DNA from: an uncultured Odoribacter sp. | GTDB lineage: Bacteria > Bacteroidota > Bacteroidia > Bacteroidales > Marinifilaceae | Assembly: GCA_905204385.1 (NCBI GenBank) | Contig: CAJKZL010000084.1 | Coordinates: forward strand, 1 to 9,514 | Direction: 5' to 3' | Length of the DNA: 9,514 nucleotides | Shown here: positions 2,866 through 9,514 of the stretch, in pieces | How positions within the stretch are numbered: the first letter of the stretch is position 1 | Layout: each line of letters starts with the position of its first letter | Made by a program: the position numbers and the translations under genes | Notes under the pieces: model-generated | Seen by the model: only the letters and a program-made list of their open reading frames with translations | Told to the model about the DNA's origin: nothing | The model's database searches: none

Positions 2866-3921
2866 TTAGGATTTTGTGGAAACGGTCAATTTATAAGTAA
2901 CCGCCGGATGGACCGGGTCATTCGTGATAAACTGGATGAGTTGGGTCGACTCGGGAACGGTGGTTTTGAAATGAATGCTGGCTTTTACTTTTTTGCCCGG
3001 TTTGACGGTGGTCTTACTGAGGTGGACGGTGGCCATCGGGTGGGAGGTTTTGATTTTTCGGATGATCAGTTCCGATTTCCCCTCATTCTGGATGATGATG
3101 TCGTGGGTGTAGGAAGTATTCGGCGAGAGTTCCCTTAAAGTGGTTTCGGTTTCCGACAGGCTGATTCTAGGTGCGGATTCGAAATTGCCCTCGTATCGGG
3201 AAAAATCCTCCTGAATATCGGCCCTGATTTTAAGTTCATGCCGGCTTTTATCGTCGATCTCCACGGTAACCAGGCCGGTGACGATCCCCCAATCGTCCAC
3301 CTGGCTCGCATCGTAGGATATACGGATCTTGCCTTTCTCGCCCTTTTTCAAAACGGCAGGATTGACCTCCGCGCCGATATACGGAGAGGAGGACGCTATC
3401 CGTAAATGGGCCGGCTTGGAGTCCGTATTGACGACTTCGATCTCTTCGTGTACGGTCTTGGTATTGGGGACGATTCCCAGGTCGAGGAAATTTGCCGTTG
3501 CTTTCACTTTTCCGAATGCAAAAGGATAATCGCTATAGGGACCTTTGGGTTTTTGACTCACTTTTCCCCGGATGGTGAGCGATACTACCGGATTTTCGGC
3601 ATTGGAATTTACGGTGATGCTTTTGAGGAAAGCTCCCGGACGTTGGCGGGGATCGAAGGTCTCCCGGATACTTCCTTCCGCACCGGGAGGGATAGGGGCG
3701 TTGCTCCATGTGGGTACGGTACAGCCGCAACCGGCACGTACATTGGTCAGGATCAGGGGTGATTTACCTGTATTTTTGAATCTGAAATCATAGCTGACTT
3801 TTCCGTTTCCTTCGGCGATGGTCCCGAAATGGTGGGACGTTTCCGGAAAATCGATTTTAGCTTTTTGACCGAATACCAACAGGGGCAAAAGCGTCAGCAA
3901 TGAGAGAATAATTCTTTTCAT
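2866..3921 (-). CDS. DUF1573 domain protein, secreted, CGC motif in N-terminal domain
   Basis: This is a 351-residue exported protein and the first gene of the minus-strand operon. The signal peptide is residues 1-18 (MKRIILSLLTLLPLLVFG, then QK). The first module (about 22-122) is a typical DUF1573 domain: a HFGTIAEG strand, FKNTGKSPLILTNVRAGCGC with the CGC pair C65/C67, and a PPG turn. A middle Ig-like module (about 130-237) contains LDLGIVPNTKTV and ISYDASQVDDWG. The third module (about 250-350) keeps the fold and the ITNDPVHP ending but has TSHPM (292-296) where CGC would be. The domain order matches the downstream paralogue, so a tandem duplication is likely. The function is unknown; the periplasmic or surface location is inferred from the signal peptide. 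The ATG at 3921 lies about 35 bases downstream of a strong promoter match. Confidence 0.88.
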   Translation of the reverse strand: MKRIILSLLTLLPLLVFGQKAKIDFPETSHHFGTIAEGNGKVSYDFRFKNTGKSPLILTNVRAGCGCTVPTWSNAPIPPGAEGSIRETFDPRQRPGAFLKSITVNSNAENPVVSLTIRGKVSQKPKGPYSDYPFAFGKVKATANFLDLGIVPNTKTVHEEIEVVNTDSKPAHLRIASSSPYIGAEVNPAVLKKGEKGKIRISYDASQVDDWGIVTGLVTVEIDDKSRHELKIRADIQEDFSRYEGNFESAPRISLSETETTLRELSPNTSYTHDIIIQNEGKSELIIRKIKTSHPMATVHLSKTTVKPGKKVKASIHFKTTVPESTQLIQFITNDPVHPAVTYKLTVSTKS

Positions 3922-4225: not shown

Positions 4226-5059
4226 ATGAATATCAATGATATAGACGCAATGGCTGTATTAGTCAACGGCGCAAAAATGCCGCGTTTAGGACTAGGGGTG
4301 TGCCAGTTAAAAGAGGGAAAGGAGGTGATGGATGCTGTCGGATGGGCTTTGGAAGCTGGATATCGGTTGATCGATACGGCTTCGATATACAAAAATGAAA
4401 GAGGTGTGGGACAAGCGATACGGAGGAGTGGAAGGAACAGAAAGGATTTGTTTATTACCGGTAAAGTATGGAACGCAGATCATGGTTATTTGAAAACGTT
4501 GGATGCATTTGAAAAATCGATCGACCGGTTGCAGGTCGATTACCTTGACCTGTATTTGATCCATTGGCCTGGCAGTGATCGGTTTCTTGAAACTTGGAGT
4601 GCATTGGAAACTTTGTATTTGAGACAAAAGGTCAGATCGATTGGGGTATGTAACTGTTTGCAACATCACCTTGAATATCTCATGCAACATGCTTTGATAC
4701 CTCCCATGGTCAACCAGATGGAATTTCACCCGCGTTTGGTGCAGCATGCTTTGCTTAGTTTTTGCCAAAGCAATGGAATCTGCTTTCAGGGGTGGGGACC
4801 GTTGATGAAAGGGGAGGTAAATCGAATCACCGAATTGCAAACGCTTGCTCTCCGTTACTCCAAATCAATTCCTCAGATTGTATTACGCTGGCAATTGCAA
4901 AAAGGGATTCTTGTCATTCCCAGATCTGCCCGTAAGGAACATATTTTTTTGAATGCAGATCTGTTTGATTTTAATATTACCGACCCGGATATGCGCTACA
5001 TAGATGCGCTTAATCAGAATAAGCGTACTTACAGACATCCGGACGAGTTTATTTTTTAA
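4226..5059 (+). CDS. Aldo/keto reductase
   Basis: This 277-residue soluble NAD(P)H-dependent oxidoreductase has the (alpha/beta)8 aldo/keto reductase fold, closest in pattern to the 2,5-diketo-gluconate-reductase / YvgN-like group, which reduce aldehydes and ketones to alcohols. The catalytic tetrad is intact: D50 and Y55 (LIDTASIY), K80 (TGKVWN) and H113 (LIHWPG). The signatures GLGVCQ, NERGVGQAI, VNQMEFHP and VIPRS follow in order. In the cofactor loop (IPRSARKEH) a His sits where NADPH-using members usually have Arg, so cofactor preference is open. The substrate cannot be told from sequence. The ATG at 4226 gives a short extra N-terminus; the ATG at 4250 (MAVLVNGAK) matches the family start about as well. 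It is the first gene of the plus-strand block, with 43 bases to the next gene. It may be part of the system or only its upstream neighbour. Confidence 0.93.
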   Translation: MNINDIDAMAVLVNGAKMPRLGLGVCQLKEGKEVMDAVGWALEAGYRLIDTASIYKNERGVGQAIRRSGRNRKDLFITGKVWNADHGYLKTLDAFEKSIDRLQVDYLDLYLIHWPGSDRFLETWSALETLYLRQKVRSIGVCNCLQHHLEYLMQHALIPPMVNQMEFHPRLVQHALLSFCQSNGICFQGWGPLMKGEVNRITELQTLALRYSKSIPQIVLRWQLQKGILVIPRSARKEHIFLNADLFDFNITDPDMRYIDALNQNKRTYRHPDEFIF

Positions 5060-5102: not shown

Positions 5103-5918
5103 ATGGAAAAAAATATGAGATATATCCTTATTATGATTCTTATGCTTGTTTTTATGTGGATGGCAAACTGCTCTTCGCTCAGTATGGGTAACCGGGAAAT
5201 AATTATATCGATTGCCTGCAGCATTCTGGCTCCTATTCTGGCGTTTTTCATCGATGCGGTTTTATCCAATCTAAACACTCTATCGCTCTGGTGGGCTTCT
5301 GTGTTTAAGTACCGCAACAAAGAAGTGAGAGTTTCGATGGCTTATTTGTACAGGATTCAGATCAACGGAAAGTTTTTGCTGGTCAAAAATTCAAAATACG
5401 ATTTATACCAACCTGTCGGAGGTGTATATAAAGTGCTGAGTAACGATCTCGGCTCTTTGATCGAACAATTTAGATGGCGGAAAGACAATAAATATCCGGA
5501 TACAGATGAGAAGAGATGCGATTTGAGAGGGATTATTCCATCGACGAAACTAATCGCGTTTCTTCGTTGGTACAAGTCGCAAAAACAAAGAGAAACCAGT
5601 CCCTGGCGAGAATTTTATGAAGAGTTGATTCGGAAAAATGTTTTACGAATCGAGGATTTTTCCTTTTTTGAATATCGCTATTTGCGTACGATTACGACTC
5701 CGATTCAAAGAAAAACCAATGGTAACTTGGAATACTATTCTTTCGATATCATTGATTTTATTGCAACCCCGGCTCAGGAAAAGATTTTAATAGACACACA
5801 AAGAGTTGAGAGCGACTATTTTAAATGGGTAGATGAACCAACCATTTCAAATGATGGCCGGATGAGAAATGGTAAAGTGATTCCGCTCGGCGATCATACG
5901 AAGTGGATCATCAAGTGA
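5103..5918 (+). CDS. Two-TM SMODS-associated NUDIX protein (Cap16-like)
   Basis: This 271-residue protein has two N-terminal membrane helices (about residues 5-22 and 31-54) and a cytosolic NUDIX domain (about 75-271). The domain opens with YLYRIQINGKFLLVKN and QPVGGVYK (103-110). A long insertion follows, then the core RE..EE of the Nudix box at SPWREFYEEL (166-175), which supplies metal-binding glutamates. It ends with DHTKWII (264-270). This pattern, with a split Nudix box and PWREFYEEL, is what I recall of the SMODS-associated NUDIX family. In CBASS anti-phage systems that family, joined to two TM helices, is the effector Cap16. Such effectors sense a nucleotide signal and damage the inner membrane. 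No CD-NTase is visible here. The ATG at 5103 is preferred because an upstream ATG (5004) lies inside the aldo/keto reductase gene; ATG 5115 is also possible. 36 bases separate it from the next gene. Function here is inferred by family. Confidence 0.82.
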   Translation: MEKNMRYILIMILMLVFMWMANCSSLSMGNREIIISIACSILAPILAFFIDAVLSNLNTLSLWWASVFKYRNKEVRVSMAYLYRIQINGKFLLVKNSKYDLYQPVGGVYKVLSNDLGSLIEQFRWRKDNKYPDTDEKRCDLRGIIPSTKLIAFLRWYKSQKQRETSPWREFYEELIRKNVLRIEDFSFFEYRYLRTITTPIQRKTNGNLEYYSFDIIDFIATPAQEKILIDTQRVESDYFKWVDEPTISNDGRMRNGKVIPLGDHTKWIIK

Positions 5919-5954: not shown

Positions 5955-6878
5955 ATGAAAAATTACTCTCCGATATCGTTTGATGTAAAAAATAACAAAT
6001 TTAGTGCTATTCCGGTCAACGGATCGTATGAAACGAAAGGTCCGTTGTCGGTTGGGTTTCAAATTACCAGAAAATGCAACCTCAAGTGCGTATATTGCAG
6101 CGAACCCTTTAGCGGACAAGAGGAATTGGACTTACCGGAAATCGAAAAGATCATGGGGAATCTAGCCTCCGGCGATACCCGGGTGGTTAAACTCACCGGA
6201 GGCGAACCGTTGTTGAGACAGGATATTTTTGATATTGCCGGAATTATCAAATCTTTTGGTATGCATGTAGCTATCGATACCAATGCGACTTTGATCGATG
6301 GCCCTACGGCTAAGCTGATGTCGGAAAAATTAATGTATGTAGAAACCACACTGGATGGAACGGAAGAGATGCATAATAAAATACGTGGCAATTACCGCCA
6401 AGTTTTGAAAGGGATCGACAACCTTTCAAAATACGACATAGATATTTTCCTGGCGACGATCGTGTTGGAAAATCCGGTTGAAAACATCCGGGCAGTCATC
6501 GATTTCTCAAGAAATTACAACATCAAAACGCTAAAGATTATGTCTCCCATTCCCAAAGGCCGGGGAAAAGATGTCCTCGCTGAATGCACTGGAAACCAGT
6601 CTGTTGTAGACTACTGGGAAAGTGTGTGCGAGTATAAAAAGCGTGTGAATCCGGGTTTGAAACTCATTTTGTTGGATTGGACCAAAATCGGTCCGGGATC
6701 GGTGATCTTGATTCAGCCGGACGGCCGGGTAGTAGGTTCTCCTTCCATCGGAGAAGCGGGGTGTATCACTCCATTAGGTAATTTGAGGCATGAATCCATT
6801 CTGACGATGTGGGATGCTTATAAATATAAATCGAATCATATCTGTAAATGTCTCGAACAAACCGTCTATTGGCGCTAA
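5955..6878 (+). CDS. Radical SAM enzyme with reduced SPASM/twitch-like C-terminus
   Basis: This is a 307-residue radical S-adenosylmethionine enzyme. The [4Fe-4S]-binding CxxxCxxC is C41, C45 and C48 (RKCNLKCVYC). TGGEP (81-85) contacts SAM, and LDGTEEMHNKIRG (133-145) is typical of the MoaA/PqqE/SPASM-type branch. The C-terminal part keeps the shape of a half-SPASM (twitch) domain (IQPDGRVV, then C270-ITPLGN, ESILTMW) but has few cysteines: C270, C297 and C299, with SPS where a cysteine is usual after the PDG turn. A second cluster is therefore doubtful, or unusually ligated. Related enzymes modify peptides, cofactors or nucleotides. No obvious peptide substrate is encoded in the gaps on either side. 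It does not look like viperin, whose motif context differs. The short intergenic distances (36 and 43 bases) point to co-expression with its neighbours. Confidence 0.88.
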   Translation: MKNYSPISFDVKNNKFSAIPVNGSYETKGPLSVGFQITRKCNLKCVYCSEPFSGQEELDLPEIEKIMGNLASGDTRVVKLTGGEPLLRQDIFDIAGIIKSFGMHVAIDTNATLIDGPTAKLMSEKLMYVETTLDGTEEMHNKIRGNYRQVLKGIDNLSKYDIDIFLATIVLENPVENIRAVIDFSRNYNIKTLKIMSPIPKGRGKDVLAECTGNQSVVDYWESVCEYKKRVNPGLKLILLDWTKIGPGSVILIQPDGRVVGSPSIGEAGCITPLGNLRHESILTMWDAYKYKSNHICKCLEQTVYWR

Positions 6879-6913: not shown

Positions 6914-6921
6914 TATTGTAT

Positions 6922-9297
6922 ATGGCTATAGATAAGAAATTAAATTACGGACTTGTATTCGATAAAGATACACTTGCAAAATCGAAATTTAAGACGATCT
7001 GCGAGCAAAAAAACAAAAAGATACTGATGACTTGTAAGCCTAAAACTTCGTTTCATCTCGGTAACATCTGGATGTATCACAAAATCCGTCAATTTCTGGA
7101 GTGTGGTTTTAAGATTGATATTATCATTATTTTGTTTGATGAGAATGAACGTTTGAGTGAACAGGAGAAAGATACTTTGCTTCAAAAGGCTGTGTTCACC
7201 AAACGGTTTTTAAGCGAGTTTTTCGAAAATAGTAGAATGGTGAATATAAAACTATCCACAGAGGTCAATATTCCGGAAAGAAAGATCGCTGCTTACCATG
7301 CCGAATGGAAAAGTATATATGATCGATATTGCAATAAGAATACGGATAAAAACGATCATATTTCAAAACTGATAACGGAAAAAAATCAGTTATGGGTCTC
7401 CAATACGCACACTTATGTTTCAAAATGTATCGCCATTTATACTACACGAAAAGCGGATATTGTACTTTGCGGTAAAAAACACGACAGTATCGTTTCTACC
7501 TTTAGGGCAGTTGCGAAAAAAATGAAATTGCCATTTCCCGATGTTTTGTATGTCGAAAACTTACAGGATTTGACAGGAAAACGGGCAATGGATGGTAATG
7601 ACAGCGGTCCCGCGTCTATCAATTTACTGGACTCGGAAGAAATTATTCTCAGTAAAATACTTAAGTCGCCTCAAAAACTGAGAAGAATATTTTTGAATTC
7701 GGCATTGGACAAACTACTCCTGGCCGATAAGGAATTTACTCTGTGTGGAGTAAAAACAATAGCCTCCGAGGAACAAATGAAAGGGTGTTTCAATCTTGCT
7801 CCCGACTGTATAAACGGTGTCGTTTTGTACCATTTGATCGATGCCATCAGTACATATAACCAATTGTTGCGCAAAGTGAAAGAATATCCGGATATTAAAT
7901 TTATTTGGGAGTATGAGCGAAAATATAGCGATGACGAGAAACAACGCATCGAAAAAATTCTGGAATCTATTTATTACAATAATCAGATCGATGAAATATG
8001 TATCGGTAAAGAATTTACAGAAGGTAAAAGCGGTTCTAGAGTGTTTGAAATAGAATTATATCCTCAAAATACGAAAAACAGTTTTAAAGCTATTTTTAAA
8101 GTCGGGGATTATATCGATATGGAACGGGAAAAGGATCTTTTTGACAAGATAAACGGAAATTGTGACAATAGTTTTACGCCGGTTTTGAGGATCAGTGAAC
8201 TCAAGGATTGGAAAATAGGTATTATCTATAAACATGCGAATGTTTTTCTGAACGCTCGTTTGATCAATTTGAAAGAATATATAGAAAAACGTATTGAGAA
8301 TGAAAATTCGACCATTTTAAAGTTCATAACTTGTTTATTTAAAAGGGGGTTACAGGGCTCATTGCACAAACATGGAATTTCTTGTAATACGGATAAATAT
8401 TGTGATTTTTACAATCGGATTTTGCCGGCAGGCCTCGAAGTCGGATTGGTGGAGGATGCACCTGAAAATGCAATCGGTTTATCGGGTGACACTATTTTTC
8501 AATTGGCGGAGAATGACCGTTTCAATACGGAAAATATTTACCGGATACGGATTGCTCAAATACTTAAGTTGAGTGACGATGAAGTGGTTTTTCTCGACAA
8601 AAAGAAAAATAAGATCAGGGCTTTTCTGTCCGGAACAAGTTATAACGTCCAAAATTTAAGATTGAATTACAACAGGAAGAAACCTTTTGATATTTATGCG
8701 AAAATAGAAAAAACAAGAAGATTTTTTTATGACGAATTGCTGGCCGATGTCGATAGGCAAAAACTGGATATGCTCCTTCGTCAGATTTATGGAGAAGAGC
8801 AGGTCGGTCCATTGGAACAGATGAATGATATTTTAAGTTTAAGAACGAATAAAGTCCGGAAATCGCTCATTCACGGTGATTTGAATCTGACTAACATTTT
8901 AATCTTGGATGAAAATAATTATAGCTTGATCGATTATCAATATACCGATTACGGTTTGACCAATTATGATTTTATTAAATTTGAAGTGGAATTACGGACC
9001 CAGCTTTTGAACGAGCTGGATATCGAGGCGTATATCGCCTTTGAGGGGCGGTTGGCAGAAGTAAATAACGAAAAAAAATTTCTCGGTCAAAAAGCTGAAA
9101 ATCTACTCCTGCTTATTAAAGAAATACGGAAGATATATTTTGAAACGGATACGACAGCCGATGCAAAGAAACATTATGCGATCGGAATGTATCTTTATTC
9201 GCTCAATTGTCTGAAATATTTTAGGGAGGACAAGACCATGAAAGATAAATTGTATTTTACGGCATCTTTGTATCTCAACAAATTCCGGGATCAGTGA
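6922..9297 (+). CDS. Class I aaRS-like domain fused to APH/choline-kinase-like phosphotransferase
   Basis: This is a 791-residue cytosolic protein with no signal peptide or TM helix. Residues about 30-265 resemble the TrpRS/TyrRS Rossmann catalytic domain. The order is ILMTCKPKTSFHLGNIWMYHKI (HIGH-type HLGN at 45-48), ADIVLCGKKH (near 178-187, at the place of the VGxDQ region), a GKRAMDGND loop (219-227) where KMSKS would be, then ASINLLDSEEIILSKI, as in TrpRS. No anticodon-binding domain is apparent. Residues about 357-791 look like a kinase: a glycine-rich loop EGKSGSRVF (367-375), K393 in IFKVGD, Glu 401/403, catalytic HGDLNLTN (651-658: H651, D653, N658) and metal-binding D671 in LIDYQYTDYG. 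About 210 residues separate the N-lobe from the catalytic loop. The kinase recalls the TCAD9-type phosphotransferases of conflict systems (from memory). The ATG at 6922 is preferred over a TTG at 6916. The substrate is unknown; both active sites may be linked in one reaction series. Confidence 0.8.
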   Translation: MAIDKKLNYGLVFDKDTLAKSKFKTICEQKNKKILMTCKPKTSFHLGNIWMYHKIRQFLECGFKIDIIIILFDENERLSEQEKDTLLQKAVFTKRFLSEFFENSRMVNIKLSTEVNIPERKIAAYHAEWKSIYDRYCNKNTDKNDHISKLITEKNQLWVSNTHTYVSKCIAIYTTRKADIVLCGKKHDSIVSTFRAVAKKMKLPFPDVLYVENLQDLTGKRAMDGNDSGPASINLLDSEEIILSKILKSPQKLRRIFLNSALDKLLLADKEFTLCGVKTIASEEQMKGCFNLAPDCINGVVLYHLIDAISTYNQLLRKVKEYPDIKFIWEYERKYSDDEKQRIEKILESIYYNNQIDEICIGKEFTEGKSGSRVFEIELYPQNTKNSFKAIFKVGDYIDMEREKDLFDKINGNCDNSFTPVLRISELKDWKIGIIYKHANVFLNARLINLKEYIEKRIENENSTILKFITCLFKRGLQGSLHKHGISCNTDKYCDFYNRILPAGLEVGLVEDAPENAIGLSGDTIFQLAENDRFNTENIYRIRIAQILKLSDDEVVFLDKKKNKIRAFLSGTSYNVQNLRLNYNRKKPFDIYAKIEKTRRFFYDELLADVDRQKLDMLLRQIYGEEQVGPLEQMNDILSLRTNKVRKSLIHGDLNLTNILILDENNYSLIDYQYTDYGLTNYDFIKFEVELRTQLLNELDIEAYIAFEGRLAEVNNEKKFLGQKAENLLLLIKEIRKIYFETDTTADAKKHYAIGMYLYSLNCLKYFREDKTMKDKLYFTASLYLNKFRDQ

Positions 9298-9431: not shown

Positions 9432-9463
9432 TTTGGCAGGTTGAAAAATAAAACTTATCTTTG
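9432..9463 (+). promoter_or_regulatory. Bacteroides-type promoter for the next gene
   Basis: TTTG (9432-9435), 20 bases, then TATCTTTG (9456-9463) match the Bacteroidota -33/-7 consensus exactly. Transcription would start near 9470, about 36 bases before the ATG at 9506. The downstream gene therefore has its own promoter, independent of the four-gene block. Confidence 0.75.
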
Positions 9464-9505: not shown

Positions 9506-9514
9506 ATGTATTTA
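9506..9514 (+). CDS. Start of a downstream gene (MYL...), possibly ribosomal protein S15
   Basis: ATG-TAT-TTA are the last nine bases of the window, preceded by a promoter and an AT-rich leader, so this is very likely a real start. Bacteroidota S15 (rpsO) begins MYL, and a strong separate promoter would suit a ribosomal gene. Three residues cannot establish identity, so this is a guess from memory. Confidence 0.35.

Follow-up and report, generated by a model that had tools for sequence, protein, structure and literature searches.

The DNA analysed here, a stretch of 9,514 nucleotides that we refer to as the window, contains a gene whose 791-residue product joins a domain resembling tyrosyl- and tryptophanyl-tRNA synthetases (TyrRS/TrpRS) to a kinase of the APH superfamily. 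The synthetase-like half has lost positions that are invariant in the synthetases with which it was compared, while the kinase half carries its catalytic motifs. The gene is the last of four co-directional genes that also encode an aldo/keto reductase, a Cap16-like membrane effector and a radical SAM enzyme. We tentatively interpret the protein as a pseudo-synthetase-gated kinase that belongs with the effector and the radical SAM enzyme to a defence-type operon, a reading that we regard as possible, if short of probable, and whose mechanism we infer. The features on which the analysis is built are as follows.

4226-5059, plus strand: aldo/keto reductase at the head of the co-directional set, 43 nt before the next gene (Pfam Aldo_ket_red, E 8.9e-47)
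About 5103-5918, plus strand, longer start possible at 5004: 2TM-Sa_NUDIX protein, a Cap16-like CBASS effector (Pfam, PADLOC)
5955-6878, plus strand: radical SAM enzyme, 307 aa, with a CNLKCVYC motif (Pfam Radical_SAM, E 3e-21)
6922-9297, plus strand: fusion gene, 791 aa, putative TyrRS/TrpRS-like pseudo-synthetase domain plus TCAD9/APH kinase (open frame, profiles, predicted model)
6922-7956, plus strand: N-terminal TyrRS/TrpRS-like domain, residues 1-345, including a helical stretch beyond the KMSKS position
7054-7065, plus strand: equivalent of the HIGH motif, kept as HLGN (H in 41/45 and G in 44/45 aligned synthetases)
7471-7485, plus strand: GxDQ position, reading GKKHD, with the D and Q of 45/45 synthetases lost
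7576-7611, plus strand: KMSKS-loop position, reading KRAMDGND, with both lysines of 45/45 synthetases lost
8002-9213, plus strand: TCAD9/APH kinase at the C-terminus, from about residue 361 to 764 (both PF19974 and PF01636 score above cut-off)
8872-8895 and 8926-8940, plus strand: HGDLNLTN and LIDYQ of the kinase half
9432-9463, plus strand: match to a Bacteroidetes-type promoter after the fusion gene, taken as the start of the next transcript

A synthetase-like domain without its activation residues

An earlier note on this DNA had proposed that synthetase-like and kinase domains are paired in one chain, and the pairing is confirmed by a single frame of 2376 nt, uninterrupted from ATG to stop (with an alternative start, TTG, at 6916), in which profiles match both halves. 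The landmarks that the note had named are all present, in the order given there. The synthetase half carries HLGN (residues 45-48), GKKHD (184-188), GKRAMDGNDSGP (219-230) and LLDSEEI (235-241), and these are followed in the kinase half by IGKEFTEGKSGSRVF (361-375), AIFKVGD (390-396), HGDLNLTN (651-658) and LIDYQ (669-673).

Assignment of the N-terminal half to a fold comes from profile alignment and structure prediction. With hhalign, a combined TyrRS and TrpRS profile gave a score of 42.2, as against 22.9 for the best of 150 shuffled sequences, 14.6 for the reversed sequence and 29.1 for the best of 264 real open reading frames; a broader profile gave 42.6, as against 25.0 for the best of 100 shuffles and 31.9 for the best of the same 264 frames. 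The match to PF00579 reached 14.0 bits (E 0.032), below the curated cut-off of 21.1, and among four NCBIfam rows TrpRS came first (E 0.0026) and TyrRS third (E 0.025), both far below their cut-offs. Plain hmmsearch gave a weak signal, with the best shuffle scoring above the real sequence for two of three profiles (7.3 vs 1.7 for TrpRS and 8.4 vs 6.7 for TyrRS, compared with 9.0 vs 10.2 for the combined profile). An AlphaFold model of the domain, made from an alignment that contained chosen synthetases, is confident and has a TyrRS/TrpRS-like fold; single-sequence prediction of residues 1-345 was poor (pLDDT 39.8). Foldseek aligned synthetase structures to the modelled domain up to about residue 334, and in the predicted model, as in synthetase structures, the KMSKS position is followed by helices. 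The aminoacyl-tRNA synthetase-like (HUP) fold expected by the earlier note is thus upheld, with a class Ic layout, by hhalign scores above all shuffles and decoys and by prediction and structural search, the model having been built with synthetases in its alignment.

The catalytic residues were compared in an alignment of the window protein with 45 synthetases. H45 (41/45), G47 (44/45), Y165 and G184 (both 45/45) are kept. By contrast, five positions that are invariant in 45/45 synthetases have changed: I172 replaces D, K186 and H187 replace the D and Q of the GxDQ position (GKKH, 184-187), and A222 and G225 replace both lysines of the KMSKS position (AMDGN, 222-226). I172 stands in place of the D near the substrate helix; in synthetases this D, the GxDQ pair and the KMSKS lysines serve amino-acid and ATP binding. 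Loss of these five positions speaks against adenylation and favours a role in ligand binding or docking. The working adenylation step that had been suggested for this domain is therefore not borne out, an active TyrRS/TrpRS was rejected on the same lost motifs, and the domain is most likely a non-adenylating pseudo-synthetase. The note's other suggestion, a kinase responsive to tRNA or amino-acid state, is a possible reading of a dead synthetase domain in this position, as is sensing of a nucleotide, and it comes close to the interpretation that we favour below. Compared with archaeal/eukaryotic-type TyrRS and TrpRS (class Ic, PF00579), the domain has in common a fold of about 300 residues, the HIGH motif, the order of motifs and the helical domain after KMSKS; it differs in lacking GxDQ and KMSKS, in its identity of only 8-17% to the aligned synthetases, in falling below the PF00579 cut-off and in the attached kinase.

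An apparently active kinase of the TCAD9 type

Residues 363-764 match Pfam TCAD9 (PF19974) with an E value of 3.7e-36 and 125.7 bits against a cut-off of 40, and the APH family (PF01636) is matched with an E value of 7.1e-6 and 26.4 bits against a cut-off of 23.2, which bears out the earlier description of this half as a TCAD9/APH kinase. The catalytic HGDxxxxN and the metal-binding D are present as HGDLNLTN and LIDYQ; all four aligned TCAD9 proteins share, without variation, HGDLNL, the N after it and the ID pair. Judged from these motifs, the C-terminal half is apparently active, as a TCAD9-type member of the APH kinase superfamily. In a figure legend of PMC10910872, TCAD9 is named as a domain that accompanies vWA-MoxR-VMAP conflict systems, and a passage in PMC7159879 places APH-like kinases among conflict-system effectors that perhaps phosphorylate low-molecular-weight substrates. 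The fusion shares the HGDxxxxN and ID motifs with TCAD9 and APH kinases. Of the partners in vWA-MoxR-VMAP ternary systems, no MoxR, vWA or VMAP was found among the four window genes scanned with Pfam, in a window that extends to 9514.

The accompanying effector and enzymes

The protein encoded two genes upstream of the fusion matches Pfam Sa_NUDIX (E 2.4e-55) and the PADLOC model of the 2TM CBASS effector (E 3.7e-64), and its sequence is hydrophobic in two places close to its start, around residues 5-27 and 31-55. In a passage of a review (PMC10419184), Cap16 is described as transmembrane helices plus a NUDIX domain, with a toxicity that survives NUDIX mutation. PADLOC identified a CD-NTase adjoining the Sa_NUDIX gene in all four other loci that were opened (L175, L176, L177 and L178), with HORMA and TRIP13 also present in L176, which indicates that the 2TM-Sa_NUDIX family normally receives a nucleotide signal. 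The PADLOC model for a reverse-transcriptase-associated NUDIX protein also matches the window gene (E 1e-50), so a CD-NTase is not the sole known partner of this NUDIX domain. Sa_NUDIX was above cut-off in 2/395 genomes, with matches in 39 plasmid records, two of which were opened. A weak, stop-containing Sa_NUDIX match was also seen at L174, and the NUDIX protein had a single phage match.

The neighbours of the effector in the window are the aldo/keto reductase and the radical SAM enzyme, and no cyclase was found among the four genes scanned with PADLOC up to position 9514. CBASS proper was rejected because these four genes include no CD-NTase; one could lie to the right of 9514, though the next start has a promoter match ahead of it. 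The locus thus has the same effector family as CBASS with a 2TM-NUDIX effector (Cap16) but carries a radical SAM enzyme and the fusion, and no CD-NTase.

The profiles nearest to the radical SAM enzyme are those of NirJ, AhbC, MoaA and SPASM maturases, with none of the best 25 of 89 NCBIfam models reaching its cut-off; among proteins of solved structure, SkfB is the best relative (E 4.4e-11). The PADLOC pVip profile also matches (E 2.2e-18). Identity as a viperin was rejected, as the score against NF038283 was 49.1 bits with a cut-off of 180. At the locus, as with prokaryotic viperins and their nucleotide kinases, a radical SAM enzyme and a kinase stand together in defence-like surroundings; the two differ in that the window enzyme misses the viperin cut-off and the window kinase is of the APH type and fused to a synthetase-like domain. 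One relative of the radical SAM enzyme at E 1e-25 or better was found in 395 genomes, with 31% identity over the full length. This relative lies in a three-gene set (L289:828-4865) in which it is preceded by a P-loop NTPase-type protein with a weak PADLOC PDC-M51B match (E 3.8e-4); the set also includes a 249-aa protein and stands beside a serine-recombinase-like gene that was recognised by reading. The aldo/keto reductase of the window is DkgA-like (243.8 bits, below the DkgA cut-off of 425), and its membership in the system is uncertain.

Layout and origin of the gene set

The left part of the window carries, on the minus strand, MutS2 (3-1748) and two DUF1573-like genes (1772-2842 and 2866-3921). 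MutS2 is 76% identical to its counterpart in an uncultured Odoribacter and 71% identical to that of O. lunatus; for the second DUF1573 gene the values are 48% and 46%, and the best is 55%, in a genome of the same family. By these identities, the left part resembles Odoribacter-type genomes. On the plus strand, aldo/keto reductase, NUDIX, radical SAM and fusion genes follow each other with gaps of 43, 36 and 43 nt. The first three genes have a third-position G+C of 0.45, 0.44 and 0.49 and the two halves of the fusion one of 0.39 and 0.38, compared with 0.59-0.62 in the flanking conserved genes of the left part. In five of 12 relatives (L001, L002, L003, L194 and L198), pnp adjoins the DUF1573 gene at the place taken here by the plus-strand set; three others have a flank of about 12 kb without pnp, and in the remaining four the flank is too short. 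None of the four genes was found at E 1e-3 in any of the 12 relatives. Because of its lower G+C and its absence from the flanks of these relatives, the plus-strand set looks acquired.

We infer that the plus-strand genes form one operon or unit. Scanning for the pattern TTTG-N-TANNTTTG, the Bacteroidetes promoter consensus, gave three matches in the window compared with 0.26 expected, among them the match downstream of the fusion and another inside the fusion gene; no match in the window starts between genes of the set. Scans of the window for sigma-70-like promoters (18 found, 18.4 expected) and for terminators (5 found, 4.1 expected) were at chance. No RNA family reached gathering score at the locus and no tRNA was found there, so both were rejected; attachment-site repeats were rejected too, as the window shows short imperfect repeats only and the right border lies beyond it.

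A proposed mechanism and its alternatives

In the interpretation that we tentatively favour, the fusion would be a class Ic (TyrRS/TrpRS) synthetase paralogue without the residues for amino-acid activation, joined to an APH-superfamily kinase. Its dead synthetase domain might bind one of the ligands that suit a pocket of this kind, such as ATP, an adenylate, tRNA or an aromatic amino acid, or else a factor from a phage, and this binding would gate the fused kinase, which could phosphorylate a small molecule, perhaps the product of the radical SAM enzyme. Kinase and radical SAM enzyme would then take the cyclase's place and supply the signal for which other loci rely on a CD-NTase. On sensing this phosphorylated product through its Sa_NUDIX domain, the 2TM protein would permeabilise the membrane and kill the cell. 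A more specific form of this proposal, which we put forward as speculation and think unlikely as it stands, is an anti-phage signalling operon in which the dead TyrRS/TrpRS domain is a sensor or integrated decoy for an attack on translation (on tRNA, aromatic amino acid, adenylate or host synthetase). When triggered, it would activate the APH kinase, which together with the radical SAM enzyme would yield a modified and phosphorylated small-molecule signal, other than a cyclic oligonucleotide, that opens the Cap16-type effector. If the defence reading is true, it would be a second way to feed a Cap16-type suicide effector, and the locus would offer a concrete test of whether bacteria use retired translation enzymes as infection sensors.

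The same genes could instead be a small biosynthetic operon that makes or alters a peptide or small molecule by means of the reductase, the radical SAM enzyme, the synthetase-like domain and the kinase, with the 2TM-NUDIX protein either serving self-protection or simply lying next to them. Synthetase paralogues such as MshC and VlmL do take part in biosynthesis, the profiles nearest to the radical SAM enzyme include peptide and cofactor maturases besides its structural relative SkfB, and 43 nt separate the aldo/keto reductase gene from the co-directional NUDIX gene that follows it. However, the synthetase residues for activation are gone, neither a precursor peptide nor a transporter nor any further tailoring gene lies in the 9.5 kb, and the 2TM-Sa_NUDIX family stands beside a CD-NTase in 4/4 other opened loci; we judge a biosynthetic role improbable on balance.

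More doubtful is a toxin or regulator aimed at translation, whose pseudo-synthetase docks on or mimics the host TyrRS/TrpRS or tRNA while the kinase modifies the target, HipA-like in effect. Fusion of a synthetase fold to an apparently active kinase would suit this idea, and HipA is stated, in a passage of PMC8262856, to phosphorylate a tRNA synthetase. Pfam, however, assigns the kinase to TCAD9/APH and not to HipA, and the membrane effector and the radical SAM enzyme would be left unexplained. There is slightly less to be said for a synthetase-like domain that is catalytic in an altered way and passes an adenylated product to the kinase or the NUDIX protein: HLGN, Y165 and G184 are kept, but I172, K186, H187, A222 and G225 occupy positions invariant in 45/45 synthetases, and we consider such activity distinctly unlikely.

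Searches for further copies

Each of the modules is known, and by limited searches we found no second example of the synthetase-kinase pairing or of the gene set, both of which appear to be new. A full-length search returned, among the matches listed, the fusion itself alone from 7994 candidates scored, and the 1420 candidates for residues 1-345 included none with an E value up to 1. Of 7992 sequences scored against an alignment of the kinase pair, two matched, both without the synthetase half and one a member of the query. Within the order, 2/393 genomes matched the fusion, in the kinase core only (residues 648-712 and 646-716); within the family 0/56 did, in a type of search whose empty answer shows nothing. 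Neither tblastn of the fusion in plasmids and phages nor PADLOC at E up to 10 gave a match, and there was no confirmed match for the fusion in genome contigs and viral contigs or for the TCAD9 alignment in viral contigs. Among the papers listed for the domain pairing, for decoy-type systems and for the ternary systems in the open-licence PMC literature, none describes this fusion. Word-based searching misses distant relatives, so the rarity of the architecture is not proven, and with one copy of the gene set found there is no conservation of the set to support a shared function.

The earlier note had also raised the possibility of homologues with the two parts as separate genes, merged here by a sequencing error; none was found, nor any with both parts at all, and the open frame and the equal third-position G+C on either side of the joint (0.39 vs 0.38) speak against such a merge. 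An error of assembly, or two genes joined by chance, would fit the single copy of the architecture but is very improbable given the one open frame with the same codon-position composition on both sides and a matching protein cluster (100% over the full length) that stands for 12 member sequences, of which one contig is shown.

TCAD9 kinases in other loci

TCAD9 was above cut-off in 6/395 Bacteroidota-group genomes, with matches of any strength in 80/395; the contexts inspected are those of the six genomes and one of the weaker matches. The window and locus L115 have in common the coupling of a TCAD9 kinase with a HUP nucleotide-binding domain, at a kinase identity of 25%. In L115, however, the two are separate genes, the HUP domain is cytidylyltransferase-like and accompanied by a STAND NTPase and TPR, and synthetase, radical SAM and Sa_NUDIX are missing. 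The L115 pair (6181-10582, minus strand) comes from a Chlorobaculum MAG. Its first gene encodes 1024 aa with NB-ARC, TPR and a NadM-like HUP domain (CTP_transf_like) that apparently occurs twice (the second copy by reading), and the TCAD9 kinase gene lies directly downstream.

Other TCAD9 kinases differ from the fusion in their N-terminal partner, which is STAS in L113, membrane-like (by reading) in P0003 and absent in P0002. Defence aside, with the fusion TCAD9 kinases gain another input domain besides STAS and the membrane-like N-terminus. STAS-TCAD9 fusions of the Bacteroidota group were seen at L113:7241-9526 (STAS by Pfam) and, with STAS recognised by reading, at L114:6757-9045, L120:6480-8798 and L121:7092-9422. 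At L117:3423-7315 and L118:6911-10773, TCAD9 genes of about 655 aa lie downstream of an SMC/AAA_21-like ATPase (recognised by reading in L117), a defence-looking pair, and L116 contains a short TCAD9 frame.
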